DNA of 64,000 nt, from assembly GCF_026278245.1 (NCBI RefSeq), contig NZ_CP111079.1, positions 1,056,501-1,120,500 of the forward strand, written 5' to 3'. The notes beneath the pieces were generated by a model. That model searched no databases. It saw only the letters and a list, made by a program, of their open reading frames with translations, and was not told where the DNA came from. This document shows positions 1 through 64,000 of the stretch, piece after piece. Position 1 is the stretch's first letter. Each line of letters starts with the position of its first letter. This DNA is from Pontibacter kalidii (lineage in GTDB: Bacteria; Bacteroidota; Bacteroidia; Cytophagales; Hymenobacteraceae). The position numbers and the translations under genes are program-made.

Positions 1-365
1 GTAGTCTCAACAAATGGGGATGGTCCCTGGCGGTCGGTATAGTGGATCTGATCATCGGTATCATTCTGGTTTCTACGCCTGCCATATCCATGGTAGTCCT
101 GCCGCTTTATGTTGGCTTTGGCGTCCTGTTCCGTGCCACCCTGGCAATTGGGTGGGCCTTTGAACTGAAACGGAGGGAGGTACCCAACTGGGGGTGGTTT
201 TTGGCTGTGGGTTTACTCGGGGTGCTGTTTGCCCTTGTCATGCTGTGGAACCCATTGTTTGGCGGTCTTACCATCGTCATCTACACCGGCGTGGCCTTGA
301 TTTCCATTGGTGTTTTTCAGGTTTTCCTGTCGCTCAGGCTAAAAAAGTATAAAGATATGTGGTAA
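1..365 (+). CDS. DUF308 (HdeD-like) membrane protein, 5' end outside the window
   Basis: The frame is open from base 3 to the stop at 363-365, so the start lies before the window. What remains (about 120 residues) is strongly hydrophobic, with repeated membrane segments opened by the W-G-W-S-L and W-G-W-F-L-A-V-G motifs typical of the DUF308/HdeD repeat. A short basic tail (LRLKKYKDMW) follows the last segment. HdeD of E. coli is linked to acid resistance, but most DUF308 proteins have no known role. A GTG at 42 could serve as an internal start but would cut a repeat, so I prefer a truncated longer gene. A terminator-like hairpin follows. Confidence 0.75.
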   Translation, partial: SLNKWGWSLAVGIVDLIIGIILVSTPAISMVVLPLYVGFGVLFRATLAIGWAFELKRREVPNWGWFLAVGLLGVLFALVMLWNPLFGGLTIVIYTGVALISIGVFQVFLSLRLKKYKDMW

Positions 366-376
366 GGGAAGGGTGG

Positions 377-409
377 AAGCCCGCAAATGTTACCGGCACC
401 TGCGGGCTT
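377..409 (+). terminator. Hairpin after the DUF308 gene
   Basis: A 9-bp stem (AAGCCCGCA at 377-385, TGCGGGCTT at 401-409) starts 12 bases after the stop codon and is followed by a moderately T-rich stretch that itself contains a TATACTT heptamer. It fits an intrinsic terminator, although the T-run is weak. Confidence 0.55.
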
Positions 410-735
410 ATACTTTTCGCAGGCACCCCTCCTGGTACTTCTGATGCGTTCGGAGGTTCTATGTTGAGGTTCCGCCAAGCGCGCTGAAAGTATGAACAAG
501 CCTCTCTCACCCAACTTTCTGCTGATTTTCCCGCGTATCCCATTGCCTGAGATACCCTCCTCTCGCGCAGCCAGCATGACCATCCAGGGGCCTGCTGAAG
601 TATAAATTTTAGGTGACAGCGGTAGTGGCCGCACCGCTGTAAGAAGTATATTTTTGAGGGCGCTGGGAGAGCCAGGAGCGGAATCAGATTGGTAAACTTC
701 TATATTTATCGCTATCTTAAGTAAAATTTGCGCCT
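410..735. other. Spacer before ppc, no gene seen
   Basis: Short open frames on the minus strand lack a plausible start and have no recognisable protein character. The stretch holds AAGTATA words at about 597 and 645. An AT-rich region directly before the ppc start, ending TAAAATTTGC, resembles a -7 element only six bases from the ATG. Confidence 0.5.
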
Positions 736-13842: not shown

Positions 13843-14975
13843 GCCAGCTTCTGCTTTATGCGTGGGTCGGCCCAGACATAGGCCGTGTCGGCTAGCGCGT
13901 AGGAAATCATGCGCACCACCAGCACCACCAGTATGATCGCTACCAGCACCGGGTAGTCCCGCGCCATCACCGATTCAATCAGCAAACGGCCTATACCGGG
14001 TATGGCATAAATGGTTTCCACAAGTATGGAGCCGCTCACCAGCGCTGGAATAAAGTCTGATACGATGGTGATGAGTGGCAGCAAGGCGTTGCGCAGCGCG
14101 TGCCGGCGGATGACCAGGTGTTCCGGCAACCCTTTTGCCCTGGCCGTGCGCGTAAAGTTGGCCTGCAGCGACGCCTGCAGCGAGTTATAGACCTGGTTGG
14201 TAATGTAGGGCAGGTTCACGAGTACCAGCGCCAGGAGCGGCAGTGCCATGAACTGCATCTGCTGCCCCAGTTCTTGCCAAAAGTCAAGGTTGTCAGGTGC
14301 ATAATACCCCATTCCATACACCGGGAAAAGCTGCAGGAAATCGGGGTTAGCGAGTAGCACCAGCAGCAGCAGGGCCAGCACCAGCATCGGTATACTATCT
14401 ACAACAAATAGGGATGGCAGCAACAGGCGCCGCAGGCGCTGCATCCGTTTCCGGGCTATCAGTATACTTAGCTCAAGGGCCAGGGCGAGGGTAACCGCCA
14501 TGCCTGTTAACAGTAGCCAGAATGTGTTGCCGATACTGTTCCGGATCATTTCCAGCACAGGCTGACCCGTGCGGTACGAGGTGCTGAAATCACCAGTGAG
14601 TATACCTGAGAGCCAGTGATGATACTGGTTGGAAGTGCCGTTCCAGTTAAACTGTGGCAGCAGGTAGGAGTAAGATAGCTCGAGTTGCTCTTGTGTGGCT
14701 TCCGGCTGCAGGTTTGGCGGCGCTTGGGGCTGTTCGTAAGAGGAGAGGCTGAAGTAGAAAAGAGGTAGGTGCTGCCCGGTTCTTTGCTGATACTCCCGGA
14801 AGGCCGCTTCCCGGCTGCTTTGGCTGCTTTGATTGTAGAAGCTGGCCTCCGGGTTCAGGAAGCGCTCCTCCCCGAACGAGCCCGGAAGCATCCTGCTCAG
14901 TAGAAATACCAGCGTTCCCAGCAGCCAGATGGTGGGGATAGCCAGCAGAATTCTCCTGAGCAGGTACACAAGCAT
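13839..14975 (-). CDS. Peptide-type ABC transporter permease (OppB/DppB family)
   Basis: 378 residues with the OppB-type start MLVYLLRRILLAIPTIWLLG, a long periplasmic loop (about 30-125, longer than usual), and the core helices with EAA-type loop FTRTARAKGLPEHLVIRRHAL and the family end-motif ETIYAIPGIGRLLIESVMARDYP. It pairs with the OppC-type product to form the membrane channel. It lies 5 bases after the substrate-binding lipoprotein gene, in one operon. Confidence 0.92.
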   Translation of the reverse strand: MLVYLLRRILLAIPTIWLLGTLVFLLSRMLPGSFGEERFLNPEASFYNQSSQSSREAAFREYQQRTGQHLPLFYFSLSSYEQPQAPPNLQPEATQEQLELSYSYLLPQFNWNGTSNQYHHWLSGILTGDFSTSYRTGQPVLEMIRNSIGNTFWLLLTGMAVTLALALELSILIARKRMQRLRRLLLPSLFVVDSIPMLVLALLLLVLLANPDFLQLFPVYGMGYYAPDNLDFWQELGQQMQFMALPLLALVLVNLPYITNQVYNSLQASLQANFTRTARAKGLPEHLVIRRHALRNALLPLITIVSDFIPALVSGSILVETIYAIPGIGRLLIESVMARDYPVLVAIILVVLVVRMISYALADTAYVWADPRIKQKLA

Positions 14976-14980
14976 AGCGC

Positions 14981-16711
14981 TTACTCGTCCTCTTTTAAGG
15001 TGAAGGCACTAACGTCGTAGTTAGGTTTTAGGCCTGAGATCTTTGTATTTGTGAAACGCTGGTGAATGGCGATGCGCTCCTTTGTGTAGTACATCGAAAT
15101 GAAGGCGGCCTCCTCGTGCATGATTTCCTGCAGGCGTTTCAGCAGGCTTGCCTGTTCCTGGCGGGAGGTAACGGTGCCGCTGATTCTGTCTAGAATCTCG
15201 TCGCTTTCCGGTGTGCCGAAGCCGGTGTAGTTCAGCCCGCCTTCCTTGGCATAGTCGGAGTGAAGCAGCGGCTTAAAGTTGAAGGCAAAAGGGTTGCCGC
15301 CCAGCGAGCGAAAGTATAGATCGAAGTCGTGTTGCTTGGACTTACTCGCCAGCAGACTGCTCTCCACCCCCTGCACGTGTACCGGTATCCCAATCTGCGC
15401 GGCATTCTGCTGGAGTATAACAGCTGCATTTTCATAGCTGGTGTTCCCTGCACGGAAGATCACCTCAATTGTGAGCTGCTCTTTCTTTCCGTTGATGTTC
15501 TTGTACCAGCCTCCTTTTTCCTTTTTCCATCCGGATGCTTTTAACAGATCCGTCACTTTGGCGGGATCAGAAGTATAATGTTTCAGGCTTGTGTTATAGA
15601 AGTCGGCAACAGACGGTGGAATGGGGCCAACCGTAGGTGTGGCGTAGTCCTGCTGCGATACTCTGATCACGCTTTCGATACCCAGGAGATGGGCAATAGC
15701 TTGCCGCGTGCGCTTGTCAGCGAACTTTGGCCGGCGGGTATTGATGCCCGCATACGTAAACTCGTACGCATCCGGTGTGTGCAGGGCATAGTCTTTCAGA
15801 AAGGGCTCCTGCCGCTGTAGCTGCTCAAACTCAGCCACCGGTATACCCTCCAGCACATCCAGCTGCCGGTTCTTAAGGGCAAGAACGGCTGTTGTCATGT
15901 CCGGAATAACCTGAAAGCTGACGCGCTGTGGAATGGCTGTCAGATGTTGTGTGTTAGATGTGTTGTTCCCCCACCAGTCTTTTTTGCGCGTCAGCGTCAG
16001 GTATTGTCCGTTTTCCCAGTTCTCCAAGGTATAGCCGCCACTGCCTTGCAGCAGTGCTGGGTCCCGCCCAAAATCAGGCGAGTTAAACTTGACTGCGAAT
16101 GCTTTTAGTTTCTCATCGTTTTCCAGTTCGGAGGGATTTCCGCTCAGGGTAGCCACTTCTATGTGCCGCAGCAGGTTCTCAGGATCGTACAGATAGGCCG
16201 GCAGTATAAAGAAATCGCCGGTGAGCAACTCCATCTCAGGCGCATACCCGCTGCACACAAACGTGAAGCGGCGCGGGTTATCTGCATCTATCCTGATATC
16301 CTGAATGAACTCCAACTGCGGTTTAAGACTCTCGTTGTTCAACAGCGGAGCTTTTGCCACCTTCAGCGTGAAAGCCACATCCTCAGCTGTTACAGGGCTG
16401 CCATTCGTCCATTCCGCCGCCTCCCTTATTTCATAGGTGAAAAGCGTGGTGGAGTCCTGTCGCTCAACCGAGGGCATGTCCTTAGCCAGGTATGGCTTAA
16501 TTTCATTGGTCCCCAGGTCGGCGCTCAGCAAACTCTGAAACAGCAGGTTGATAATCTGTAGTGCACCGGCGTGGCTGTAGCTCACAGGGCTCAGCGTTTC
16601 CGGTTCAGTTGATAACCTAACCCGCACCTCTTCAGGTGCGCGCTCTGGCTGGCTACAGTATGTAAAAAGTAATAAGAGAAAGCAGGTTAATGCTGTGTTG
16701 ATTTTCCTCAT
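14981..16711 (-). CDS. Oligopeptide-type ABC substrate-binding lipoprotein (SBP_bac_5)
   Basis: Extracytoplasmic solute-binding protein of 576 residues. It has a signal peptide and a lipobox-like LFTYC with Cys19 (Tyr at -1 is unusual). The family-5 signature follows: LSTEPETLSPVSY, then WTNGSPVTAEDVAFTLKVAK, and later HYTSDPAKVTDLLKASGW. Substrates in this family are peptides, less often nickel, heme or opines. First gene of the importer operon; a putative 52-residue exported peptide is encoded 53 bases upstream on the same strand. Confidence 0.92.
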   Translation of the reverse strand: MRKINTALTCFLLLLFTYCSQPERAPEEVRVRLSTEPETLSPVSYSHAGALQIINLLFQSLLSADLGTNEIKPYLAKDMPSVERQDSTTLFTYEIREAAEWTNGSPVTAEDVAFTLKVAKAPLLNNESLKPQLEFIQDIRIDADNPRRFTFVCSGYAPEMELLTGDFFILPAYLYDPENLLRHIEVATLSGNPSELENDEKLKAFAVKFNSPDFGRDPALLQGSGGYTLENWENGQYLTLTRKKDWWGNNTSNTQHLTAIPQRVSFQVIPDMTTAVLALKNRQLDVLEGIPVAEFEQLQRQEPFLKDYALHTPDAYEFTYAGINTRRPKFADKRTRQAIAHLLGIESVIRVSQQDYATPTVGPIPPSVADFYNTSLKHYTSDPAKVTDLLKASGWKKEKGGWYKNINGKKEQLTIEVIFRAGNTSYENAAVILQQNAAQIGIPVHVQGVESSLLASKSKQHDFDLYFRSLGGNPFAFNFKPLLHSDYAKEGGLNYTGFGTPESDEILDRISGTVTSRQEQASLLKRLQEIMHEEAAFISMYYTKERIAIHQRFTNTKISGLKPNYDVSAFTLKEDE

Positions 16712-16764
16712 GTACTTACCCTTTGGCTAAAGATTGTAAGGGCAAGTTAGGGAAAAGAAAGGGA

Positions 16765-16923
16765 TTAATCTTCTTCCCAGGTCGCAGTGCCTCCAAATGC
16801 TGAGATTTGCTGGTCGCTTTCAGCCGTTGAAGTAGTTTTAGTTTGCTGGTTGGTCTGAGCTGTATTTCCTGTGTTTCCTAAAGTCAGCAAATTAAGAATT
16901 AGGGAGATGATTATAGATACCAT
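16765..16923 (-). CDS. Small putative exported peptide (52 residues)
   Basis: ATG at 16921-16923, stop TAA at 16765-16767. Residues 2-15 are a continuous hydrophobic run (VSIIISLILNLLTL) and could act as a signal sequence, although basic residues are missing before it; a plausible cut is after NTA (residue 22). The remainder is a Gln/Thr/Ser-rich, acidic peptide ending ISAFGGTATWEED. The frame closes just upstream of the ATG, so this is the only start. It lies 53 bases before the peptide-importer operon on the same strand and is divergent from two helical-repeat proteins. No family recognised; coding is inferred from the start context and the signal-like N-terminus. Confidence 0.5.
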   Translation of the reverse strand: MVSIIISLILNLLTLGNTGNTAQTNQQTKTTSTAESDQQISAFGGTATWEED

Positions 16924-17285
16924 TTTTAAAAGGGTTTATGTTCTTTGATGATTACAGGGCAAAGTTGAGTATAAGATGTTGGGGATTAAAGGAATGTTCA
17001 TGTATAAAAGTAACTAGGAAATCTTTTTGTTGTATTATATTTTATTCTATTTGGTAAGTTTCAGTTGATTAGATTGAGCTATTTAACTATTTTTAAAATG
17101 CCTACTGATCCTGTTAAGGTAACTAAATGCATCTTACTGTATGGCATGTACATTTTACAATGTTAATAAAAAAGGTATGTATATACAGTCAATAAACCCT
17201 TATTAATGTAACTTGAACAATATTTTTGACCACTATAAATTTTATTATTTGATCTGCCTTGGGGAAGGGCTTGAGAAGCTTTAAA
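16924..17285. other. Very AT-rich divergent control region
   Basis: This 360-base stretch between the small peptide gene and the helical-repeat gene is visibly poorer in G+C than the rest of the window and must contain promoters for both directions. No gene is supported. A TTG at 17259 extends the downstream frame, but I do not think it is the start. Confidence 0.5.
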
Positions 17286-18758
17286 ATGGATGAGTTAAAA
17301 TCGTTAGCAAAAATTGCTGTTGAAAGTAACAATTCTAAACAGATGTTACCCAACTTTAATAAAAGCAGCAAAGAGGGGATGTTTTATAATAATCTTATGC
17401 AAGATAATTATATAGATGATGCTGTAGCATCAATGGATCTGTATGGCTCAAGCCCCAATGATGTAAAATACAAAATGCTAAAAGTTAGGCTCAAGAAAAA
17501 GCTGTATAACTCACTATTCTTCTATGATAAGCATAAATTAAAGAAAGCCCATCAGAAGGAACAGGAATGTCTTCATTTACTTCACCACGCACACTTATTA
17601 CTCAGGTTAAAAGAACCTGTATTAGTCTTAAGTATAGCAGCTAAAGTCAAGAAAATTGCTATTCAATATGAATACATCAATTTTGTTATTGCAGCTTTAG
17701 AATTAGAGATGGATTGCTACTCAAAAACTGGTAGCATTAACAGCTTCTTGCAGGCAAAACAAGAGCTTGAAAAATTTTTAAATATAAAAAAGTACGAACG
17801 GGAGGCTGTTACCTTTCTTCAGCTCCTAAAAGTAAAGTATAGTAAATCTATTAAACATAGGAGGGCTTATCTATCAAGTATCACAGACGACGTTGATAAT
17901 ATGTACAGGCTCTGGAAGGCTGCAAAATCATTTGAGGCGTTCAATGCCTATTACAAGGCCAGCATTATTTTCCACGAAATGGTGGGAGATTTTTCTGCCA
18001 TAATCGATTTAACAGTGTCTTCTGAAGATAAACTGGCCTCAGGAGAAGTGAATAGCTTAAGGTTTGATTCGAATTATAATAAATTCATACTTGTTTACGC
18101 TCACTTTCGGGCGAAACAGCTACTAGAGGGATTGCAATATGCCTCAAAGTTCCACAGCGATTTTGAAGAGAACACTCCTAATTGGTTTGCTTATACAGAA
18201 AATTATTTCCTGATAGCTCTGCATGCAAAAGAATATGAGCTAGCTGGTCACCTCCTACATAAAGTATTTTCAAATCCCCACCTTAAGAGACGGCCAGCGT
18301 TTGCCAGGGAGAGATGGACGCTTTTTCAAGCATACTATAATTTGGTTGGGGAGTTTTTCAACCATGAAGATACAGTTAATCCTTTCTTTTTATCTCTTCC
18401 TGTATATAGCAAGGATAAACAAGGTTACAATGTAGCCATTCTAATACTTCAATTTATTTATTTTCTTCAAAAGAAGGAAACAGAAGCTCTACTGTATAGA
18501 ATTGAGAGTCTTAAAAAATATATTTTAACCCATCTTAGAGACACCTTTAGCCTCCGTAGCAAGACTTTTCTCAAATTGCTGATACTAATCGTAACTGAGG
18601 ATTATGATGTGGTTGCCTGTAAGAAGAAGGGTCAGAAGTTGTATCAGAAGCTTATTGAGACGCCCATCCCAGGAGATGCCTATGCTGAAATTGAGATTGT
18701 GCCTTATGAACATCTTTGGGAGCACATACTCGATAGATTGGAAATTCATTATAAGTAA
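17286..18758 (+). CDS. Helical-repeat (TPR-like) protein, tandem paralogue 1
   Basis: 490 residues from the ATG at 17286, chosen because MDELKSLAKIA aligns with the start of the next gene (MKELQRLVRLI). Almost entirely alpha-helical in character, with paired helices of about 35-40 residues as in TPR-type solenoids. A basic segment YKMLKVRLKKKLYNSLFF lies at about 58-75, and the C-terminus has the motif PGDAYAEIEIVPYEHLWEHIL shared with the paralogue. No signal peptide, membrane helix or catalytic motif. Composition is AT-rich (about 30-40% GC), unlike neighbours. No named family recognised; a sensor or scaffold role is possible. Confidence 0.75.
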   Translation: MDELKSLAKIAVESNNSKQMLPNFNKSSKEGMFYNNLMQDNYIDDAVASMDLYGSSPNDVKYKMLKVRLKKKLYNSLFFYDKHKLKKAHQKEQECLHLLHHAHLLLRLKEPVLVLSIAAKVKKIAIQYEYINFVIAALELEMDCYSKTGSINSFLQAKQELEKFLNIKKYEREAVTFLQLLKVKYSKSIKHRRAYLSSITDDVDNMYRLWKAAKSFEAFNAYYKASIIFHEMVGDFSAIIDLTVSSEDKLASGEVNSLRFDSNYNKFILVYAHFRAKQLLEGLQYASKFHSDFEENTPNWFAYTENYFLIALHAKEYELAGHLLHKVFSNPHLKRRPAFARERWTLFQAYYNLVGEFFNHEDTVNPFFLSLPVYSKDKQGYNVAILILQFIYFLQKKETEALLYRIESLKKYILTHLRDTFSLRSKTFLKLLILIVTEDYDVVACKKKGQKLYQKLIETPIPGDAYAEIEIVPYEHLWEHILDRLEIHYK

Positions 18759-18772
18759 GGAGAGGTGTTGAA

Positions 18773-21667: not shown

Positions 21668-21959
21668 TTATACTTATTCTTTAGTAGCCAGACAAAGGAA
21701 CTTTAGACAAAGGACAAAAGACTTTAAAGTATAAACCGTCATAGTTCAGGTAGTGGCTTGAAACTGTTTCTCTGTTTATACTTCTATTCCTTAGCTATAC
21801 TTGCCGTTTATACTTGAGATGGACTTGTACTTAAGCCATACTTATACTTGCTCCACCAAACAGAAAGTCCGCTGAAGTATAAACCCCAGCGGACTTTTTG
21901 CTTCTAAAGAGCGGGTATGCTTCAACCCCCAAACTCTCTAACTCTCTAACTCTACAGGC
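21668..21959. repeat. Spacer with the densest AAGTATA/TATACTT cluster
   Basis: Seven exact heptamers in both orientations between 21668 and 21890, mixed with near-matches. A GACAAAGG-type low-complexity stretch (21690-21727) and a CTCTAACTC run (21935-21957) are also present. The AAGTATAAACC / AAGTCCGC...GCGGACTTTTTG segment (about 21868-21900) forms a small hairpin on either strand. No gene is seen. Confidence 0.7.
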
Positions 21960-25189: not shown

Positions 25190-27079
25190 TCATTCAAAAC
25201 TCCCTTCCTCCTTCCAGAAGTATAGCTTGTTGTCCACCATGCCATTCCTGAAATACTGCACCTGTGCCTTTAGCTGTTGGCCGGCTTGTGGGGCAGGGGA
25301 GGCTGTGGGAGCGAGGTCGGGGAAAGTATAAAACCTGAGCTCATCCTGCTGGTTCAATTCACTCACTGCCTCCGGCTCCACCAGCAGGTAAGCCGAGCCG
25401 TTGAAAAGGATAGCTTGCCCCGTACTTGCCGTGTCCAGCAGCGAGTGGCCGAAAGGCAGCAGCTTATTGGTTGGCAGGTTCAGGTAATCGATCACCGTGG
25501 CCGGAATATCGGCATGTTGCGCAACTTTAGCAGGGTTTATACTTTTAAGGCCTTTGCCCGGATGGAACAGCAGCAGCGGCACCCGGAAATGGCCCAGCTC
25601 GTTCTGATAAGCCGGGTTTATACTTTTCTGGGTGTGGTCGGCAGTAAGTATGAACAGTGTGTTTTCGTACCAGGGCTGCTTCGAGGCCGACTTAAAGAAC
25701 TGCCGCAGCGCATGGTCCGCATAGCCAATCGATTCGTGAATCTCCAACTCCCCCTTCGGGAACCGTCCTTTATACTTGTCGGGGATGGTGTAGGGTTGGT
25801 GGGAGCTCAGGGTGAAGAGCGTAGCCATAAACGGCTGCTGAAAAGTTGTCAGCTCCCAGGCAACGTACTGTAGGTAGGGCTCGTCGAAAATGCCCCACTG
25901 CCCGTCGAAATGCTGCTTGCGCAGCTCGCGCGGGTACTCATCCAACCCATAGTATGCCTGCACCCCTACGCGGGCGGCAAAGTTGTTGAAGCCCATCGAG
26001 CCATTGGCCGCTCCATGGAACATAGCCGTTTGGTAGCTGGCCTCCTGCAGCAGCGTACCCAATCCATAGAGCCTGTTGGCTTGATAAGGGGAGGTAATAA
26101 AGGGCTCCGGCATCAGGGAAGGCACTCCGGCAAGTATGGAGGGAAGCGACTCGATGGATTTACGCCCGTTGGCAAAGGCGTGCCGGAACATGACTCCCTC
26201 ACTTGCCAGCGAGTCCAGAAACGGGGTGTAGCCCTGGCCATTGTTCAGTGCCCCCACATACTCTGCGGCAAAGCTCTCTAGTATGATGATCACCACATTC
26301 TCTTTCAGAGGCGCCCCATCCGGCTGGGTATACTTTTGCGGGTTGAACGCAAGCGCCGCCAGCAACGCCTCGTCTGATTGAAAGTAGTGCTTCTCCTCCA
26401 GCGTGGTTTTGCCTATCCCTTTTATAAAGGTGAAGGGGCTGTTGAGGGTGAGGTGGCCCAGCGCTGCCGGCTCCAGTATAAAGGCATGGCTGGGGCGGAG
26501 TGGCTTCAGCTGCAGGCCTCCCCGGATGCCCAGCACCACGAGTCCCGCCACCAGCAGCAGGCGCAAACTGCGCAGCCATACCTTAGGTGCCGTCTCCGGC
26601 AGGGCAGGGGCCTTGGGGAAAGCTTTGGCCAAACCGATCACCAAAAGTATAAATCCCAGGGCCAGGTACCAGTAATAACCCAATAGCTGCACCAACTGGC
26701 TGGCAATATCGCTGGTAATGGAGAGCAGCTCATTGCTGGTGCGGCGGCCTATAAACTTAAAGAACTCCACATCCACGATGGCCAGGGCAATAAACGGGGC
26801 GTTGCCAAGTATAAATATCCACTTGAGCACAAGCTGGTAAGTAGGGTGCAGCGTGTTGCCTACTGGCAGCAGCGAGAGCAGGATAAATAAGCCGTTTATC
26901 GCAAGTATAGCCGCCAGGTCGAAGCGCAGGCCGTGCGCAAAGGCAAACAGCAGTTCTCCCGCGCCAGCCTCGGCAAAGGCCGGGTAGTTAAACACAAAGA
27001 AAAGCAGACGCAGCAGCGTGTAGAGCACCAGCAAAAGCCCCAGTCGACGCAGCATCAGTATAAAGGCGGTATCGAACAT
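25190..27079 (-). CDS. LTA-synthase-family sulfatase-fold membrane enzyme
   Basis: 629 residues: five N-terminal membrane helices (to about residue 190), then an extracytoplasmic alkaline-phosphatase/sulfatase domain. Metal and active-site segments are visible: VVIIILESFAAEYVG, FANGRKSIESLPSILAG (Ser/Thr nucleophile region), TLFTLSSHQPY, and LTADHTQK with ELGHFRVPLLLFHPG. The family transfers phosphoglycerol or phosphoethanolamine to lipids or glycans in the envelope; the donor here is unknown. The gene is unusually rich in AAGTATA/TATACTT words (about nine). Confidence 0.9.
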   Translation of the reverse strand: MFDTAFILMLRRLGLLLVLYTLLRLLFFVFNYPAFAEAGAGELLFAFAHGLRFDLAAILAINGLFILLSLLPVGNTLHPTYQLVLKWIFILGNAPFIALAIVDVEFFKFIGRRTSNELLSITSDIASQLVQLLGYYWYLALGFILLVIGLAKAFPKAPALPETAPKVWLRSLRLLLVAGLVVLGIRGGLQLKPLRPSHAFILEPAALGHLTLNSPFTFIKGIGKTTLEEKHYFQSDEALLAALAFNPQKYTQPDGAPLKENVVIIILESFAAEYVGALNNGQGYTPFLDSLASEGVMFRHAFANGRKSIESLPSILAGVPSLMPEPFITSPYQANRLYGLGTLLQEASYQTAMFHGAANGSMGFNNFAARVGVQAYYGLDEYPRELRKQHFDGQWGIFDEPYLQYVAWELTTFQQPFMATLFTLSSHQPYTIPDKYKGRFPKGELEIHESIGYADHALRQFFKSASKQPWYENTLFILTADHTQKSINPAYQNELGHFRVPLLLFHPGKGLKSINPAKVAQHADIPATVIDYLNLPTNKLLPFGHSLLDTASTGQAILFNGSAYLLVEPEAVSELNQQDELRFYTFPDLAPTASPAPQAGQQLKAQVQYFRNGMVDNKLYFWKEEGSFE

Positions 27080-40183: not shown

Positions 40184-40999
40184 ATGGGTTTAAAGGATAA
40201 TAAGGTAGATACGGAAAGAAAGCGGAGGTATTTTGTGTCGCGCAGGGTAGACCGGATCTTCCTGGAGCTTTACAAAGTTTACGCCTTCCACGTCCGCTTT
40301 TTCAAAGAAGTCTTTGTGCCGCCTTACGAGTTTAGGGAAGTGGTGCGGCAGTGTTACGAGGTGGGAGTAAGATCGCTTCCGCTCATCTCGCTCACAGGTT
40401 TTATCATCGGTATCGTATTCACCAACCAGTCGCGGCCCTCGTTATCGGAGTTCGGGGCTACTTCGTGGCTGCCTTCGCTGGTATCCATCGCCATTGTGCG
40501 GGCGCTGGCACCGCTGGTAACGGCCATTATTGCCGCCGGCCGGGTGGGTTCGGCCATTGGAGCAGAGCTCGGGTCGATGCGCGTAACCGAGCAGATCGAC
40601 GCCATGGAGGTATCCGCCACCAACCCGTTTAACTACCTGGTGGTGACGCGCGTGTTGGCTACCACCCTCATGGTGCCGGCTCTGATGATTTACACTGTTT
40701 TTGTTTCCCTGATGGGGGCCTACCTCAACGTAAACCAGAACGAGCTCACCAGCTTTACGACCTACATCACGCAGGTGTTTGAGGCAATTACGTTCCTTGA
40801 TATCTTCTCCTCCATCATCAAGACCTTTATTTTCGGGTTCACGATCGGCATGGTGGGCTGCTACAAGGGATATTACTCCTCCAAGGGAACGGAGGGAGTG
40901 GGTAAAGCGGCCAACTCGTCGGTGGTAACGGCCATGTTCTTGGTATTTATTGAAGAACTGTTGTCCCTGCAGATCATCAACCTGTTCAGGGCTATGTAA
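40184..40999 (+). CDS. Mla-type ABC permease (MlaE family)
   Basis: 271-residue inner-membrane permease of the phospholipid/MCE transport type. After a basic cytoplasmic start, the MlaE core has GFIIGIVFTNQSRPSLSEFG, AIVRALAPLVTAIIAAGRVGSAIGAELGSMRVTEQIDAMEV (the conserved E-L-G-S-M-R motif) and TNPFNYLVVTRVLAT. Works with the ATPase and MCE protein encoded next to move lipids between membranes. First gene of the operon; 9 bases separate it from the ATPase gene. Confidence 0.93.
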   Translation: MGLKDNKVDTERKRRYFVSRRVDRIFLELYKVYAFHVRFFKEVFVPPYEFREVVRQCYEVGVRSLPLISLTGFIIGIVFTNQSRPSLSEFGATSWLPSLVSIAIVRALAPLVTAIIAAGRVGSAIGAELGSMRVTEQIDAMEVSATNPFNYLVVTRVLATTLMVPALMIYTVFVSLMGAYLNVNQNELTSFTTYITQVFEAITFLDIFSSIIKTFIFGFTIGMVGCYKGYYSSKGTEGVGKAANSSVVTAMFLVFIEELLSLQIINLFRAM

Positions 41000-41008
41000 G
41001 CAGAACGT

Positions 41009-41782
41009 ATGAAGAAGATAAATCCTAACATAAACCGGGAGAACAAGGTAATCGAGATCAGCGGGCTGAGGAAAGCTTTCGATGATTTTGAAGTGCTGAA
41101 AGGCGTGGACCTGGACCTCTACCAGGGCGAGAACCTGGTGGTGCTGGGGCGCTCGGGCACCGGTAAGTCCGTGCTGATCAAGATCATCTCCGGGTTGCTG
41201 AACCCCGACGAGGGGATGGTAAGGGTGCTGGGCCAGGAGGTGAACACCTTAAAGCCCAAAGACCTGGATCAGCTGCGCCTCAAGGTCGGCTTCTCGTTCC
41301 AGAACAGTGCCTTGTATGACAGCATGACGGTGTATGAGAATCTGGAGTTTCCGCTCATACGCCATGCAAAAGACATGGGCAAGAGCGAGCGCGACAAGCG
41401 GATACAGTTCATACTCGACGGTGTGGGCCTGCTGCAGACCATCAACCAGATGCCCTCAGAGCTTTCCGGCGGTCAGCGCAAGCGCATCGGCATCGCGCGC
41501 ACACTTATACTCAAGCCGGAGATAATGCTTTACGATGAGCCTACAGCCGGCCTGGACCCTATTACCTGCATAGAGATCAATGCGCTGATTAACGACGTGC
41601 AGGAGAGGTTCAATACCTCGGCCATCATTATTACCCACGACCTGACCTGCGCCCGATCCGTTGGCGACCGCATGGTGATGCTGCTAGAGGGGCAGTTCCA
41701 GCGGCAGGGTACGTTCGAGGAGGTGTTTAACACGGATGATGAGCGGGTTAAGATGTTTTACGATTACAACTTTGTATACTAA
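41009..41782 (+). CDS. Mla-type ABC ATPase (MlaF family)
   Basis: 257 residues. Walker A GRSGTGKS (47-54), Q-loop in GFSFQNSALYDSMTVYEN, signature LSGGQRKRIG, Walker B IMLYDEPTAGLDP and the H-loop in IIITHDLT. The ATPase partner of the MlaE-type permease for envelope lipid transport. Followed after 3 bases by the MCE gene, so translation is probably coupled. Confidence 0.95.
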   Translation: MKKINPNINRENKVIEISGLRKAFDDFEVLKGVDLDLYQGENLVVLGRSGTGKSVLIKIISGLLNPDEGMVRVLGQEVNTLKPKDLDQLRLKVGFSFQNSALYDSMTVYENLEFPLIRHAKDMGKSERDKRIQFILDGVGLLQTINQMPSELSGGQRKRIGIARTLILKPEIMLYDEPTAGLDPITCIEINALINDVQERFNTSAIIITHDLTCARSVGDRMVMLLEGQFQRQGTFEEVFNTDDERVKMFYDYNFVY

Positions 41783-41785
41783 CGT

Positions 41786-42832
41786 ATGAATTCGGCAGAA
41801 AATAAGCGATCCATCATGGTCGGGATCTTTGTCCTGATTGCCATCGTGATCTTTGTGATAGGTATCCTGACGCTGGGCGGCCAGCAGAAAAGGTTTATCG
41901 AGAGCATCTCAGTAAGTACTTTCTTTGATGATGTGGAGGGCCTGAAGGTGGGCAACAATGTCTGGTTCTCGGGCGTGAAGATCGGTACGGTAAAGGAGAT
42001 CAGGTTGTATGGCGAGTCGCAGGTGCAGGTGCTGATGAACCTCGAGCAGTCGGCGCAGAAGTACATCCGCCAGAACTCAAAGGCCCGTATCAGCTCCGAG
42101 AGTCTCATTGGCAACAAGATCATCGAGATCTTTGGCGGCACACCGGCCGCGGGGCCGGTACAGGACGGCGATGTGCTGGCATCCGAAGCGAACCTGAACA
42201 CCGACGACATCATGAAGACGCTGCAGGAGAATAACAAGAACCTGGCAAATATTACCAGCAACTTCAGTGTGATCAGCGACAAGCTGGTGCGGGGCGAGGG
42301 CACTGTGGGCACGCTCCTTAACGACACTACGCTGGCAGAAGATTTTAAGAGTATGGTGGCCAGCCTGGAGAATACCTCCCAGAATGCCGTGCGCGCCTCC
42401 CGCGACCTGAGCCGCTTCACCAGCAAACTAAACACCCAAGGCAGCCTTGCAAACGAGCTACTGACGGATACCACTGTTTTTGGCAGGCTGGAGAGCGCAA
42501 TGGCGGAGCTGGAAAAGGCCACGCAGTCGGCCACGCAGATGGCGCAGAACCTGGAGCAGGCCAGTGGCAAGTTTAACAACGATAACAGCGCCGTGGGGGT
42601 GCTGCTCAACGACCCGAAATTCGCCCGCCAATTGCAGAGTACGATGCAGAACCTGGAGACCAGCACCGAGAAACTGGATGCCAATATGGAGGCTCTGCAG
42701 AGCAATTTCCTGCTCAGAGGCTATTTCCGGAAGAAGGATAAAGAGCAGCGCAAAGCAGAAGAGGAGGCGCAGGAACAGCAAGCTGAGCAGGAGCAGCAGC
42801 AGCAAACCGAGCAGCAGCCTGTTAAAGAATAG
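41786..42832 (+). CDS. MCE-domain (MlaD family) lipid transport protein
   Basis: 348 residues. One N-terminal membrane helix (SIMVGIFVLIAIVIFVIGILTL), then an MCE domain (about 38-115, with VEGLKVGNNVWFSGVKIGTV and ISSESLIGNKIIEI), then a long helical region (about 140-300) likely to form a coiled-coil needle or tunnel, and a Gln/Glu-rich tail. It would form the periplasmic lipid channel of the system. Last gene of the operon, with a hairpin terminator directly after. Confidence 0.92.
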   Translation: MNSAENKRSIMVGIFVLIAIVIFVIGILTLGGQQKRFIESISVSTFFDDVEGLKVGNNVWFSGVKIGTVKEIRLYGESQVQVLMNLEQSAQKYIRQNSKARISSESLIGNKIIEIFGGTPAAGPVQDGDVLASEANLNTDDIMKTLQENNKNLANITSNFSVISDKLVRGEGTVGTLLNDTTLAEDFKSMVASLENTSQNAVRASRDLSRFTSKLNTQGSLANELLTDTTVFGRLESAMAELEKATQSATQMAQNLEQASGKFNNDNSAVGVLLNDPKFARQLQSTMQNLETSTEKLDANMEALQSNFLLRGYFRKKDKEQRKAEEEAQEQQAEQEQQQQTEQQPVKE

Positions 42833-42901: not shown

Positions 42902-42958
42902 TCAACTCTCTAACTCTCTAACTCTCTAACTCCCAAACTCTCTAACTCCCAAACTCCC
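42902..42958. repeat. CTCTAACTC / CCCAAACTC low-complexity array
   Basis: Imperfect tandem units of CTCTAACT and CCCAAACT run up to the start codon of the next gene. Related arrays occur at 21935-21957 and 57583-57630. Confidence 0.7.
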
Positions 42959-42959
42959 T

Positions 42960-43694
42960 ATGTCTCCCTACGAAGCTCAGGCCATGTATGAACTACAGCG
43001 GTGGCAGCACGAAATGCTGCGCGACCCAAGTATGTTTAATGCGCTTGCCCGCAGGGCGCAGGTGAAGCTCAACAGTTTCATACCGGAGAAGGTGCACCGG
43101 GCCATCACCACGGCCATGAAACAGATGATCCGGGGGGTACTGTTTGGGGCTGGGTACGTTTCGCAAAAACCCCTGGAGCAGGTGCCGCTGGAGGTGCGGG
43201 AGGGGCAGGTGCGGGGGCAGATAAAGTATTACCAGCAGGCCGCCGCGGCCGAGGGTGGCGTGACAGGGGCAGGCGGTATTCTGCTCGGTCTGGTAGATTT
43301 TCCGCTGTTGCTAGGGCTGAAGCTGAAGCTGCTCTATGATGTTGCCGCGCTGTATGGCTATGATATAAAGGACTACCGCGAACGTGTATACCTGCTGCAC
43401 GTTTTTGAGTTGGCCTTTAGCTCGCAGGAGCACCGCCGGAATGTTTACCTGTACCTGGCCGACTGGGAATCGCAGAAGCTGCTGCTGCCCGAGGATATCA
43501 ATGCCTTTGATTGGCGCAGCCTGCAGCAGGAGTACCGCGACTACATCGACCTGGCAAAAATGGCGCAGATGATTCCCATTATCGGGGCGCCGATCGGAGC
43601 AGTGGTAAACTACCGCCTTATTAGCAGGCTGGGCGAGACGGCCATGAATGCTTACCGCCTGCGCTGGAAGGAACAGGGGCTGTTGCAGCATTAG
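42960..43694 (+). CDS. EcsC family protein
   Basis: 244 residues with the EcsC pattern: VHRAITTAMKQMIRGVLFGAGYVS near 45-70, then AAAAEGGVTGAGGILLGLVDFPLLLGLKLKLLYDVAALYGYD, and a C-terminal MIPIIGAPIGAVVNYRLISRLGETAMNAYR. EcsC of Bacillus lies in an ABC transporter operon and affects secretion; its biochemical role is unknown. The start codon directly follows the CTCTAACTC array. Convergent with the large T9SS protein; a hairpin separates them. Confidence 0.88.
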   Translation: MSPYEAQAMYELQRWQHEMLRDPSMFNALARRAQVKLNSFIPEKVHRAITTAMKQMIRGVLFGAGYVSQKPLEQVPLEVREGQVRGQIKYYQQAAAAEGGVTGAGGILLGLVDFPLLLGLKLKLLYDVAALYGYDIKDYRERVYLLHVFELAFSSQEHRRNVYLYLADWESQKLLLPEDINAFDWRSLQQEYRDYIDLAKMAQMIPIIGAPIGAVVNYRLISRLGETAMNAYRLRWKEQGLLQH

Positions 43695-49085: not shown

Positions 49086-50372
49086 CTAACGCTTCTCCAC
49101 CGGAACGTAGTCGCGTTTGGTCTCGCCGGTGTAGATCTGGCGAGGACGGCCGATAGGCTCTTTGTTCTCACGCATCTCTTTCCACTGCGCGATCCAGCCT
49201 GGCAGACGGCCCAGGGCGAACATCACCGTAAACATATCGGTTGGGATACCGATGGCGCGGTAGATGATGCCGGAGTAGAAGTCTACGTTCGGGTAGAGTT
49301 TGCGCTCCACGAAGTATGAGTCATTCAGGGCAGCTTCTTCCAGCTCCTTGGCGATGTCGAGGATCGGATCGTTAATGCCAAGAGCGGTGAGTACTTCGTC
49401 TGCAGCCTTCTTAATGATTCTGGCGCGAGGGTCGAAGTTCTTGTACACGCGGTGGCCAAAGCCCATCAGGCGGAACGGATCGTCCTTGTCTTTTGCTTTC
49501 GCGATGAATTTCTTGGAATCACCACCGTCTGCCTTGATCTGCTCCAGCATCTCGATAACGGCCTGGTTGGCACCACCGTGCAGCGGGCCCCACAACGCGC
49601 CGATACCGGCAGAAACAGAGGAGTACAGGCTGGCGTTGGCAGAGCCTACCAAACGCACCGTAGAGGTAGAGCAGTTCTGCTCGTGATCGGCGTGCAGGAT
49701 CAGCAGCTTGTTCAGGGCGTCTACTACCACCGGGTTTAGCTCATACTCCTCGGTTGGGTAGGCGAACATCATGTGCAGGAAGTTCGAGCAGTAGTCCAGC
49801 TTGTTTTTTGGGTAGTTCACCGGATGCCCGATAGAGTTTTTGTAAGACCAGGCAGCAATAGTTGGTAGCTTGGCCATCAGACGGATGATAGAAAGGTCTA
49901 CCTCATCTTTCGTCTGGTTCGGGTTAAGCGATTCAGGGTAGAAAGCCGTTAGCGAGCTGATTAGGGCAGAAAGGATCCCCATCGGGTGCGCCGCAGAAGG
50001 GAAACCGTCCAGGATCTTGCGCATGTCCTCGTTCACCAGCGTGTGCAGTCTTATCTTGTTGCTGAAATCGTCCAGCTCCTGTGCTGTTGGCAACGAACCA
50101 TAGATCAGCAGGTAAGCCACCTCGATAAAGTTCGACTTCTCTGCCAGTTGCTCAATAGGATAGCCCCTGTAGTGCAGAATACCCTGCTCACCATCCAGGA
50201 AAGTGATGGCGCTGGTAGTGGCCCCCGTGTTCTTATAGCCTGAGTCCAGGGTGACATAGCCGGACTGAGCACGCAGAGAAGAAATGTCTATCGCTTTTTC
50301 GTTCTCAGTACCCTCAACAACAGGCATCTGGTAAGATTTACCATCTAAAATTATTTCAGCAAATTCTGACAT
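49086..50372 (-). CDS. gltA: Citrate synthase
   Basis: 428-residue type II (NADH-regulated-type length) citrate synthase that condenses oxaloacetate and acetyl-CoA. The active-site His motifs are clear: HADHEQNCSTSTVRLVGS and, further on, GFGHRVYKNFDPRA, plus SAGIGALWGPLHGGANQAV. The N-terminal domain (about 1-60) is the beta-rich extension of hexameric enzymes. Monocistronic, with its own terminator. Almost no AAGTATA word falls in the gene, as in other highly conserved genes here. Confidence 0.96.
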   Translation of the reverse strand: MSEFAEIILDGKSYQMPVVEGTENEKAIDISSLRAQSGYVTLDSGYKNTGATTSAITFLDGEQGILHYRGYPIEQLAEKSNFIEVAYLLIYGSLPTAQELDDFSNKIRLHTLVNEDMRKILDGFPSAAHPMGILSALISSLTAFYPESLNPNQTKDEVDLSIIRLMAKLPTIAAWSYKNSIGHPVNYPKNKLDYCSNFLHMMFAYPTEEYELNPVVVDALNKLLILHADHEQNCSTSTVRLVGSANASLYSSVSAGIGALWGPLHGGANQAVIEMLEQIKADGGDSKKFIAKAKDKDDPFRLMGFGHRVYKNFDPRARIIKKAADEVLTALGINDPILDIAKELEEAALNDSYFVERKLYPNVDFYSGIIYRAIGIPTDMFTVMFALGRLPGWIAQWKEMRENKEPIGRPRQIYTGETKRDYVPVEKR

Positions 50373-54845: not shown

Positions 54846-55596
54846 AAGGTAAGGTTGTATGTGTTTGTGTGGCAGCGCTTCTACGTTATACCTGCTCTAT
54901 CCATCAACCCGAATCAAACAGAAGTATACAGCAGGCACGCGCTGGTGCGAGGCCTAATATACGAAACTTCAATACTTAGTTGAATTAATAAATACTGTGA
55001 TCGCCTCCAAAGTATGGTCTGTTTATAGTATGAGACAGCCATTTCCGGCGCTTTTTTTGCTGCATCTACCATATTTATAGCATAAAAAGTATACTTTTTA
55101 TAATCCTGATAGTATAAAATATAAATGTTTTTGAATCTAAAAATCAAAAGCAATGTTTCCAAGATAGCCACCATTGCCTGCAGCAGGTAAACGTACAGGA
55201 TCCTGCCAAGGAAATCCGGAAGCGGTGGAGAGATGGTTCTGCAGCCTAATGTAACACAGGTTACAGGATAAGGTGGCCCGGGATAGCCAACAACCCGGGC
55301 TTAGAAGACAGGGCGCTTTAGAAAAGGCCTTTGCAATGAGCGGATTTATACTTGCAGGCACTCGGAGTCTACGACTTTTGAGACAAAGCGCAGACGAGGA
55401 GCCGGGACAACATCAACAGGAATTCAGATAGATAATCAGGCAGGGGACTGCCGGTTCTAAAATAATAGATCACCTAAAACCCTAATTTCTATGATCAGAT
55501 TAACGGCTTAGCAGTACCCCGGACTCCAGTCGCTGTTTGAGATACTGCTTGAAAAGCTCTTAAAAATGATTCTGACCATGTTAAGGAACACCCGAT
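54846..55596. other. AT-rich spacer before prkA
   Basis: No convincing gene. Notable elements are two overlapping heptamers AAAAGTATACTTTTTA near 55085-55100 and a G+C hairpin GCCCGGG...CCCGGGC (55276-55300). A minus-strand frame (54914-55174) is low complexity and not credible. Control signals for the prkA gene must lie here, but no clean promoter is seen. Confidence 0.5.
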
Positions 55597-57525
55597 ATGA
55601 ACATTTTAGAAAAGATCAAGACAAATTACAGCGCCTCCATGAACGAGATGACAGTAGCTGCCTATCTCGAGGAGTGTAAAAAGGACTCGAAAATGTATGC
55701 CAAGCCCGCCGAGCGGATATTGGACGCCATTGGGGAGCCGGAGATCCTGGACACGCGGCAGGACCCGATGCTAAGCCGCATCTTCTCTAACAAGAAGATC
55801 AAGATCTACCCTGCCTTCAAGGATTTTTACGGCATGGAGAGCACCATCGAGCAGATCGTGTCCTACTTCCGGCATTCGGCCCAGGGGCTGGAGGAGAAGA
55901 AGCAGATCCTGTACCTGATGGGGCCGGTGGGCGGGGGTAAAAGCTCGTTGGCCGAGAAGCTGAAGCACCTGATGCAGCAGCACCCCATTTATGTGCTGAA
56001 GGCTGGCGACGAGGTGAGCCCTGTGTTCGAGAGCCCGCTGGGGCTGTTTGCCGATTATACCGATGAACTGGAAGAGGAGTATAATATTCCCGCGCGCTAC
56101 GTGCCCAGCTGCATGAGCCCCTGGGCCTCCAAGCGCCTGCGCGAGTTCGACGGCGACATCAACCGCTTTAAGGTGATCCGGCTTTTCCCTTCTATCCAGG
56201 AGCAGATCGCCATTTCCAAGACGGAACCGGGCGACGAGAACAACCAGGATATCTCTACGCTGGTGGGTAAGGTGGACATCCGAAAGCTGGCCGAGTACCA
56301 GCAGAGTGACCCGGACGCCTACTCCTATACCGGTGGCCTTTGTCTGGCCAACCAGGGACTGTTGGAATTCGTGGAGATGTTCAAAGCCCCGATCAAGGTC
56401 CTGAACCCGCTGCTGACCGCTACCCAGGAGAAGAACTATAAAGGCACCGAACCAATCGGCGCGATCCCCTTCGACGGCATCATCCTGGCGCACTCCAATG
56501 AGTCGGAGTGGGCCAAGTTCCTGAACGATAAAAAGAACGAGGCCTTTCTGGACCGTATCTACAAAGTACAGGTGCCTTACTGCCTGCGCGTGAGCGAGGA
56601 GATCAAGATCTATGAGAAGTTGATTAGGGAAAGTTCGCTGCGCGAAGCGCCTTGTGCCCCGAAAACCATCGAGCTGCTGGCCGAGTTTTCGGTGATGTCG
56701 CGGCTGAAGGAGCCGGAGAATTCCAGCATTTACTCTAAGATGCGGGTGTACAATGGCGAAACGCTGCGCGAGACAGACCCGAACGCCAAATCCATACAGG
56801 AGTACCGCGATGATGCGGGCATTAACGAGGGCATGCAGGGTATCTCTACCCGCTTTGCCTTCAAAATCCTTTCCAAGGTCTTCAACTTCGACAGCGAGGA
56901 GATTGCCGCCAACCCGGTGCACCTGCTGTATGTGCTGGAGCAGGAGGTGATCAAGATGATGCTGCCGCCTGAAGCGGAGACAAAGTACCTGCACCTGATC
57001 AAGTCGGTGCTGGCCAGCAAGTATGCCGAGTTTATCTCCGATGAAATACAGAAGGCGTACATCGAGTCGTACAGTTCCTATGGCCAGAATATCTTTGAGA
57101 AGTATGTGATCTTTGCCGACCACTGGATTCAGAACAACGATTACCGCGATCCGGACTCCGGCGAGATCTTCGACAGAAGTATACTTAACGAGGAGCTGGA
57201 GAAGATCGAGAAGCCTGCCGGCATTGCTAATCCGAAGGATTTCCGCTCTGAGGTAACGAACTTCTTCCTGCGCTTCAAAGCCAACCACGGCGGCAAAAGC
57301 CCTCGTTGGGATTCCTATGAGAAGATCAAAAACGTGATCGAGAAGAAGATCTTCACCAATACCGAAGACCTGCTGCCGGTGGTGTCCTTCACGGTGAAAA
57401 CCAACGAGGAGGACGAGAAGAAGCACCGCGACTTTACCCGCCGCATGCGCGACCGCGGCTACACCGACAAGCAGATCCGTATCCTGGTAGACTGGTTCAT
57501 GCGCGTACGCAAAACGATGGCCTAA
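55597..57525 (+). CDS. prkA: PrkA family serine protein kinase
   Basis: 642 residues, close to the family length of 640. The N-terminal AAA-like domain has Walker A GPVGGGKSS (109-117) and Walker B-like VPFDGIILAHSNE in the region 285-300. The C-terminal PrkA domain includes the EIFDRSILNEELEKIEKPAGI stretch and the end VDWFMRVRKTMA. PrkA/YeaG is a stress-related kinase, genetically linked with YeaH and SpoVR, which follow here. First gene of that set, separated by 109 bases of repeat from YeaH. Confidence 0.95.
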   Translation: MNILEKIKTNYSASMNEMTVAAYLEECKKDSKMYAKPAERILDAIGEPEILDTRQDPMLSRIFSNKKIKIYPAFKDFYGMESTIEQIVSYFRHSAQGLEEKKQILYLMGPVGGGKSSLAEKLKHLMQQHPIYVLKAGDEVSPVFESPLGLFADYTDELEEEYNIPARYVPSCMSPWASKRLREFDGDINRFKVIRLFPSIQEQIAISKTEPGDENNQDISTLVGKVDIRKLAEYQQSDPDAYSYTGGLCLANQGLLEFVEMFKAPIKVLNPLLTATQEKNYKGTEPIGAIPFDGIILAHSNESEWAKFLNDKKNEAFLDRIYKVQVPYCLRVSEEIKIYEKLIRESSLREAPCAPKTIELLAEFSVMSRLKEPENSSIYSKMRVYNGETLRETDPNAKSIQEYRDDAGINEGMQGISTRFAFKILSKVFNFDSEEIAANPVHLLYVLEQEVIKMMLPPEAETKYLHLIKSVLASKYAEFISDEIQKAYIESYSSYGQNIFEKYVIFADHWIQNNDYRDPDSGEIFDRSILNEELEKIEKPAGIANPKDFRSEVTNFFLRFKANHGGKSPRWDSYEKIKNVIEKKIFTNTEDLLPVVSFTVKTNEEDEKKHRDFTRRMRDRGYTDKQIRILVDWFMRVRKTMA

Positions 57526-62950: not shown

Positions 62951-62956
62951 GTGGCT

Positions 62957-62997
62957 ACAAAAAAACAGCAGCAGCAAAACTCATTTGCTGCTGCTGT
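62957..62997 (-). terminator. Terminator of the lysine-rich miniprotein gene
   Basis: Minus-strand ACAGCAGCAGCAAA stem (62965-62978 with 62984-62997) followed by seven T residues. Confidence 0.85.
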
Positions 62998-63045
62998 TCT
63001 GTTTATACCGATGCTATACTTTAGCTGTATCGCTCTTGCGGTTCC

Positions 63046-63153: not shown

Positions 63154-63240
63154 GGTTTGTAGGATTTTATGGTTTAGCTAAAGGTACGCTATTTTTTGCT
63201 TTATGGCCGTGGCAACCGCATTATCTGAAAATATTTATGC

Positions 63241-63576
63241 TCATCCGGCTATGTAGGAATAATGCACCTCCAGTTCACCGGCCTCGAGGCCCATAGCAAT
63301 GCCCTGCAACAGGATACGGTAGTTGGGGTGCGCCGCATCGCTCAGGTCTTTTTCTATGTCATGGATGGTGGTTTGGAAAGGATCTTCACGGAAAAAGCGG
63401 AACCACAGTTTTTTATCGGTTTCATCATCTTCTTCCTCTTCGGCATCGTCGTCATGCATTACCTGTAGCTCAATCTCCCGAAGCCGTGCAACCAGGTTAT
63501 CCAGGTCAAATTGGTTATCGAGGTATGCGTTAAAAACCTCGCTGGCGATGGCGGTGTAGTTTGGTTGTTTGGTCAT
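63241..63576 (-). CDS. Hypothetical acidic protein
   Basis: 111 residues. The centre is strongly acidic (VMHDDDAEEEEDDETDKK), flanked by helical segments (NAYLDNQFDLDNLVARLREIEL and DPFQTTIHDIEKDLSDAAHP). No family recognised and no signal peptide. Starts with ATG 63574-63576; 34 bases separate it from the NUDIX gene upstream on the same strand. Confidence 0.7.
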   Translation of the reverse strand: MTKQPNYTAIASEVFNAYLDNQFDLDNLVARLREIELQVMHDDDAEEEEDDETDKKLWFRFFREDPFQTTIHDIEKDLSDAAHPNYRILLQGIAMGLEAGELEVHYSYIAG

Positions 63577-63610
63577 AGGGGTATTGACTTTAACGTTTGT
63601 ACGTGATTTG

Positions 63611-64000
63611 TTACCAAATGCGCTTTTGCTCCTTCAGCCAGTCAAAGATAAGCTGATCCACCGGAGAAATAAGCGCCCTGTCGGCATAAGATAGCCACAC
63701 CACCTCTTCAATTTCAGCAGAGGCCGCGATGGTGCCAGTATACCTGCCCTCGAAGCAGGTCATCTTTACCTGCACCCCCTCCGGGTGACTGTCGGCTTGG
63801 GCCTGGAAAATGCCGGTAAACGTCATACTTTCTTCCACCAGGTTTACACTTAACTCTTCCTGTATCTCGCGTTGTAGCGCCTGAAAGTCTGTTTCGCCTG
63901 CCTCGCGCTTGCCGCCCGGTATGTAGTACTTGCTTCTGCCCTTGCTGCGGGTGCTGAGTATCCTGCCGTCCCGGATCTCGATCCAGGCCAGCTTGTCGAT
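63611..64000 (-). CDS. NUDIX hydrolase, 5' end outside the window
   Basis: The frame is open from base 64000 to the stop at 63611-63613 (129 codons visible), so the start is beyond the window. An internal ATG at 63836 is downstream of the catalytic motif and cannot be the start. The NUDIX box is complete on the minus strand at about 63908-63839: G-G-K-R-E-A-G-E, then R-E-I-Q-E-E-L. Family members hydrolyse nucleoside diphosphates linked to another group; the substrate is unknown. Confidence 0.88.
   Translation of the reverse strand: MDKLAWIEIRDGRILSTRSKGRSKYYIPGGKREAGETDFQALQREIQEELSVNLVEESMTFTGIFQAQADSHPEGVQVKMTCFEGRYTGTIAASAEIEEVVWLSYADRALISPVDQLIFDWLKEQKRIW

Follow-up and report, generated by a model that had tools for sequence, protein, structure and literature searches.

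Proven uptake words are, to our knowledge, known only in the Pasteurellaceae and Neisseriaceae, where they are read by the type IV pilus; those of the Pasteurellaceae (USS) carry flanking AT tracts. Two other short words are relevant here, Chi, which is strand-biased and few-fold enriched, and HIP1, which is a palindrome. According to PMC3630211, the DUS of the Neisseriaceae form dialects of thousands of copies per genome, which share a constant core, differ at one or a few bases outside it and track phylogeny; S. muelleri contains two dialects in near equal numbers, and no examined genome of the genus Neisseria is without DUS. PMC2346458 and PMC1939737 describe USS as genome-wide, both genic and intergenic, with mismatched forms also over-represented.

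Within the Bacteroidota, transformation of Riemerella requires ComEC, DprA and a periplasmic helix-hairpin-helix protein, according to PMC8459023, and a DUF5689-family surface protein is described as being among the essentials. A preference for its own DNA is reported for R. columbina. The relevant passage of PMC7965970 lists putative Riemerella uptake k-mers that are A-rich, one of them present 301 times against 56 expected, and whose function, according to the authors, needs testing. In the literature searched, with subscription journals mostly outside its scope, there was no uptake or dialect word for Pontibacter and no proven one for the Bacteroidota.

Here we describe a word, AAGTATA/TATACTT, that is dispersed over a 64-kb window of Pontibacter kalidii (the whole stretch of DNA that was analysed, 64,000 nucleotides). 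The PEP carboxylase of this genome shares 92% identity with the Pontibacter flavimaris enzyme, which places it in Pontibacter. The window lies at 1.06–1.12 Mb of a 4.98-Mb contig, and the assembly has one additional contig of 73.8 kb, presumed from its size alone to be a plasmid. The word is probably a DNA-uptake-sequence-like self tag of Pontibacter that is maintained by natural transformation.

Abundance and location of the word

The window contains 130 exact copies of the word in genes and spacers and in both orientations, close to the 125 or so counted by eye in an earlier, sequence-only reading. That reading expected 6–7 copies, and its claim of strong over-representation holds: 100 dinucleotide shuffles gave a mean of 5.11 and a largest count of 12, and an order-2 Markov model predicts 9.7. 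The Markov check that it proposed gives a divided answer. Models of orders 0 to 3 reveal an excess, whereas the order-5 model predicts 116 copies and thus no excess, because the excess already resides in the component 6-mers; this model was rejected as a null since the shorter parts of the word are already over-represented. The variant AAGTATG/CATACTT, also said to be frequent, occurs 55 times against 9.5 expected (order 2).

The excess extends beyond the window. The 5.05-Mb genome contains 3210 copies of AAGTATAAA (1653 forward and 1557 reverse) compared with 46 of the reversed word (23 and 23). Within a sample of 404 kb, the window included, AAGTATA is 14-fold enriched (757 copies against 54 expected), AAGTATG 5-fold and AACTATA 3-fold. 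The intergenic logo reads (A)AAGTATAA(A), with nothing clear outside positions 0 to 9; the logos lack dyad symmetry and hold little information past 8–9 bases, and AAGTATA is not self-complementary.

Several local claims of the sequence-only reading are borne out by counting (Table 1). The cluster of seven that it placed at 21668–21890 contains seven copies, and random placement would put seven copies in 230 bp with P ~0.001. The LTA-synthase-like gene, thought to hold about nine copies, does so exactly, and citrate synthase and the three Mla genes, described as nearly empty, are free of the word.

Table 1. Features of the window and their coordinates
Feature	Position	Strand	Basis
Dispersed AAGTATA/TATACTT, 130 copies	1..64000		Counts
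Seven-copy cluster in the spacer of two convergent genes	21669..21881		Counts and Pfam
Atg22-like/MFS transporter gene, one flank of the cluster	20333-21667	+	Pfam
Amidohydrolase gene, other flank of the cluster	21960-23621	-	Pfam
Sulfatase-domain (LTA-synthase-like) gene, nine copies	25190..27079	-	Pfam and count
MlaE, ABC ATPase and MlaD genes, 0 copies	40184..42832	+	Pfam and count
Citrate synthase gene, 0 copies	49086..50372	-	Pfam and count
10-base palindrome formed by two overlapping opposite copies	55087..55096		Count
10-base palindrome formed by two overlapping opposite copies	57177..57186		Count

Two other features of the window were observed. A short tandem array of AACTCTCT / AACTCTCTAACTCCCA units occupies 42904–42960, just downstream of the mlaD-like gene. 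The region 16001–20000 has a low GC content (~40%) and two open frames of ~500 aa, of which one has a sub-threshold match to a phage tail domain (PF05709) and the other has no Pfam match; the word is still present there.

In 1.6 Mb from word-carrying genomes (78 stretches), the density of the word per kb is 1.58 for genes and 3.17, 5.08 and 6.65 for divergent, co-directional and convergent spacers, respectively, compared with 0.09 in genes and 0.11 between genes for the reversed control word. Genic copies are found in every frame and both orientations, and their density drops with protein conservation (rho -0.50 across 72 gene clusters), which fits the word-free citrate synthase and Mla genes.

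With replication direction inferred only from the GC skew of the samples, 461 copies lie on the G-rich strand and 390 on the other (54%, p 0.016), compared with 80:73 for control words. This slight bias is one point in favour of a Chi-like role, in which a cytoplasmic helicase-nuclease would stop degrading DNA or load RecA at the word, and selection for recombination or self-protection would keep its density. The word is also a dispersed, non-palindromic 7–9-mer with species-level variants, and Chi words vary between genera. The strong leading-strand bias on which the sequence-only reading made this role depend is not seen, however, and the enrichment, 14-fold for the 7-mer and ~70-fold over the reversed word for the 9-mer, is far above the few-fold enrichment of Chi. 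The word is, moreover, denser in spacers than in genes, and a Chi-like role is unlikely.

Rarity in acquired DNA was sampled at one presumed plasmid and one defence island. On the presumed plasmid, of which 53.8 of 73.8 kb were read, the density is 0.35 word per kb compared with 1.91 for the chromosome, with 19 copies observed and 12 expected. A 20-kb defence island of another genome (G028, L095) shows no excess, with 5 words against 3.7 expected; it encodes MmeI-type restriction enzyme, SIR2-like, Schlafen-like and CoiA-nuclease-like proteins.

Dialects and the fate of sites across Pontibacter

Three dialects, AAGTATAA (AAG), AGGTATAG (AGG) and AACTATAG (AAC), are found among 50 Pontibacter genomes, 39 of which carry a word. 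The AGG dialect is present in 12 of the 50 (2823–5222 copies each) and the AAC dialect in five (6288–8208 copies each), and AAG occurs alone in 16 of the 37 genomes in which AAGTATAAA was counted whole (1270–4337 copies each). Two genomes are mixed, G026 and G032, with ~2000 copies of AAGTATAAA each together with 2617 and 2002 copies of AACTATAG, respectively. G095, G108, G119 and G149 (the last also as L010) were placed in AAG from sequence stretches, which in G095 amount to 3.8 kb only; this genome also has 907 copies of AACTATAG.

Eleven genomes (G002, G007, G023, G024, G025, G027, G033, G036, G060, G142 and G152) contain none of the three words at such levels, AAG absence in G060, G142 and G152 being judged from 13–40 kb only. 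Some of them retain a modest excess, for example G007 with 572 copies of AAGTATAAA against 92. No convincing replacement word was found in the 9–44 kb searched in each. In 40 kb of G060 (L204, L269), CCGTAGCC occurs 18 times against 1.1 and TATATA is in excess.

Whole-genome counts outside Pontibacter, made for AAGTATAAA and AGGTATAG only, gave no AAGTATAAA excess in 22 genomes of the order and at most about three times the control for AGGTATAG in 100 genomes of the family's other genera. Among 52 non-Pontibacter Bacteroidota loci of at least 15 kb, the top 7-mers of the eight listed loci score 8.0–17.8, which overlaps the 7.1–29.5 of the weaker Pontibacter word loci; samples of 22 kb separate the groups poorly. 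At the top non-Pontibacter locus (L027, Chitinophaga solisilvae), TTACGAA / ATTACGA-type words overlap and resemble local repeats.

ComEC was chosen as the tree marker because PEPC, found in only 29 of the 50 genomes, had to be dropped; an outgroup search with a transporter gene returned nothing and was uninformative. On the ComEC tree, genomes cluster by dialect. Those with AAC and those with mixed dialects make up one clade. A second contains all 12 AGG genomes plus the AAG genome G006, which may branch within or next to them; when seven genes of 20 genomes were used for the tree, the three AGG genomes included formed a clade that excluded G006. Word-less genomes occupy at least two separate places on both trees, the deep branches of which are weakly supported. 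AAG is spread over the trees and is therefore taken as the likely ancestral dialect.

Two further explanations were considered. The word could be bound by an abundant protein that organises the nucleoid or chromosome, at thousands of places per genome and with a specificity that has drifted, as its chromosomal location, near strand neutrality, enrichment in spacers and low level on the presumed plasmid would allow; 11 of 50 congeners without the word at such levels, and two genomes that hold two dialects side by side, make this improbable, as do the missing dyad symmetry, the little information past 8–9 bases and the greater richness of convergent than divergent spacers. It is less probable still that the word is a methylation-linked mark, modified by a DNA methyltransferase and read in modified form by an uptake or nuclease system: genomes usually avoid restriction sites rather than enrich them, even if a short, AT-rich word with a purine at position 8 and species-level variants would suit such an enzyme and Campylobacter jejuni is cited, in a passage of PMC7965970, as taking up methylated DNA only.

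Retention of sites was compared in 14 same-dialect pairs, in both directions (28, hence not independent), with words of the same composition as controls. In close pairs, 201/311 aligned AAG sites (control 0.46), 289/411 AGG sites (control 0.36) and 132/212 AAC sites (control 0.44) were retained. Retention was no better than control in three of the 28 directions (G014 to G000, 0.56 vs 0.55; G001 to G020, 0.20 vs 0.19; G030 to G131, 0.61 vs 0.59), which counts against the uptake reading.

One-base differences occur at all seven word positions in close pairs, and gaps are few (13/311 AAG, 16/411 AGG and 22/212 AAC aligned sites); sites therefore change by substitution, not insertion. Distant AAG genomes, at 74% identity, keep 245/603 sites. 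A bias of mutation or repair in one direction, as in very-short-patch repair, or the insertion of a small element would likewise yield a genome-wide, strand-neutral excess, and in distant comparisons a gap is found at 10–16% of aligned sites. Such an origin is nevertheless very improbable given the differences at every position, the scarcity of gaps in close pairs and the sites shared by AAG species at 74% identity; in addition, none of the one-mismatch variants of the word is far under expectation in the 404-kb sample (lowest 0.7). Among the roles that the sequence-only reading offered without choosing, an uptake-like one fits best, with Chi-like action, insertion and single-base mutation bias disfavoured.

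Comparison across dialects, in pooled pairs that are not independent, shows what becomes of homologous sites. At AAG sites, AGG genomes have AGGTATA 191 times and AAGTATA 65 times (1460 aligned), and AAC genomes have AACTATA 26 times and AAGTATA four times (378 aligned); at AGG sites, AAG genomes have AAGTATA 194 times and AGGTATA 120 times (1772 aligned). A number of homologous sites have therefore been rewritten in place at dialect change. The AAC sites speak against the uptake reading: 57 are unchanged and 26 switched in AAG genomes (571 aligned), and 88 are unchanged and five switched in AGG genomes (675 aligned), perhaps because many may sit in constrained codons. A further point against that reading is that no relics of the word were seen in seven of the 11 word-less genomes, where AAG sites are exact in 2.2% of 1086 cases compared with 13.2% of 6036 for controls; an old loss followed by full decay would therefore look the same as original absence.

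Competence genes and their link to the word

The comEC, comEA-like (double helix-hairpin-helix) and dprA genes are each present in all 50 Pontibacter genomes; the copies in G000 were named by NCBIfam, and ComEC and ComEA by domain models only. In G021 (L257, L220, L278), stops or frame changes disrupt all three and most neighbours are intact, three of them being flagged too with one stop each. In G009 (L215, L276, L277), where the joint decay is less clean, comEC and dprA are disrupted, and a single internal stop leaves 304 aa of the comEA-like gene open; six neighbours are flagged, some of them probably as over-extended starts or tandem paralogues. From their reading frames, G021 and, less cleanly, G009 appear to be natural losses of transformation, and the joint decay suggests that the three genes act in a single pathway that the cell can do without, which would apply to transformation.

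Word content does not follow the state of these genes throughout, and four observations argue against the uptake reading. G018 has the most words (8208) and yet a shortened ComEC frame of 561 aa; G009 retains 5041 words despite its broken comEC and dprA; the gain ratio of G009 is not different from that of its relative G015; and all 11 word-less genomes have comEC, comEA-like and dprA genes without internal stops, so loss of the word is not explained by loss of transformation.

The competence genes are themselves dense in the word, ranking 2 (comEA-like), 4 (comEC) and 15 (dprA) among 72 gene clusters (permutation p 0.003), and 5 (comEA-like), 7 (dprA) and 31 (comEC) after correction for conservation (p 0.03), in stretches that were partly picked around competence genes and with comparison clusters that are largely their neighbours. 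Lineage-specific gains in G021 number five words against 319 control gains, compared with 87 against 2181 in 11 relatives (p 0.036, uncorrected), and intact genomes can be as low or nearly as low (G013 0/83, G022 4/213, G108 7/351). In G021, retention is low for words (0.50 vs 0.56–0.78) and for control words alike (0.34 vs 0.42–0.57).

No full-length type IV pilus or type II secretion ATPase (PF00437) was found in the 50 genomes, the control genomes being detected. Matches to PF00437 span ~40–65 of its 370 positions, and the three genomes out of 50 that pass the cut-off do so through ~60 residues inside frames of 646–648 aa. The type IV pilus route was rejected on this ATPase test; the known DUS/USS route thus seems to be missing, which counts against the uptake reading, and a putative reader must differ from neisserial ComP. 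DUF5689 was likewise rejected as reader, being present in 22 of the 50 genomes and not tracking the word. A ~430-aa form of it adjoins SusD-like outer-membrane genes in G030 and G011 (L126 60–2592, L121 967–3582), the two genomes examined for this, whereas the gene next to it in G010 lacks a Pfam hit.

By eye, no gene near comEC (40 genomes) or near the comEA-like gene (20 genomes) splits word from word-less genomes. Two proteins are encoded near the comEA-like gene or on the same locus (L254). A 1329-aa helicase-like protein (14795–18784) near that gene carries 3.2 words per kb over 23 genomes and has below-cut-off similarity to anti-phage ProA and Hhe, and a 281-aa protein (19009–19854) reaches 5.9 words per kb, the highest value among the 72 gene clusters.

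A proposed uptake system and its relation to known words

An uptake-like role fits best with the dialects, their in-place switching, the conserved sites, the near strand neutrality and the spacer excess, as well as with the apparent rarity of the word in the sampled island and presumed plasmid and the dense competence genes. We infer that transformation occurs in Pontibacter, that the word acts on uptake or recombination and that a reader exists. Natural transformation would proceed via the ComEA-like helix-hairpin-helix protein, the ComEC channel and DprA/RecA, and the putative reader would prefer DNA that carries the local dialect, AAGTATAAA, AGGTATAG or AACTATAG. Recombination would then bring in alleles bearing the word more often than word-free ones, and copies would build up through biased conversion wherever protein coding allows. 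A shift in reader specificity would lead to existing sites being rewritten in place, creating a new dialect, and loss of specificity would let the word decay.

The match to neisserial DUS dialects, together with the competence genes shared with Riemerella, leads us to propose an uptake word with a putative pilus-independent reader; the word is kept out of the pilus-read DUS/USS family because the pilus feature was searched for and not found. Chances are about even that the Bacteroidota possess a pilus-independent uptake system with a reader of an 8–9 base word, the specificity of which would have changed at least twice within the genus (AGG and AAC), with thousands of sites rewritten each time, many in place, and a barrier raised between sister lineages.

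If this is true, sequence-specific uptake, or some other upkeep of a watermark, arose independently in a genus where no pilus ATPase is recognisable. The 50 related genomes comprise three dialects, two genomes that look transitional, 11 that lack the word and one or two in which competence genes have decayed; comparing them can test how such words spread and change, and offers a way into the mechanism of DNA uptake in Bacteroidota.

The Pontibacter word resembles Chi and HIP1 in being short and over-represented genome-wide; it differs from Chi in being near strand-neutral and far more enriched, and from HIP1 in not being a palindrome. In comparison with USS, no AT tracts flank the word past positions 0, 8 and 9 and no pilus ATPase was found; the two share a genic and intergenic distribution and the enrichment of variants, here AAGTATG and AACTATA. 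The differences from the DUS of the Neisseriaceae are the phylum, a core of 7–9 bases rather than the 10-mers counted there, conservation of TATA rather than CTG, and the 11 of 50 congeners without the word; in addition, no full-length pilus ATPase was found in Pontibacter. Both words have thousands of copies in dialects that follow phylogeny, and S. muelleri has its counterpart in G026 and G032. DUF5689, the family of one of the essential Riemerella surface proteins, does not track the word in Pontibacter; as in Riemerella, ComEC, DprA and a helix-hairpin-helix protein are all present.
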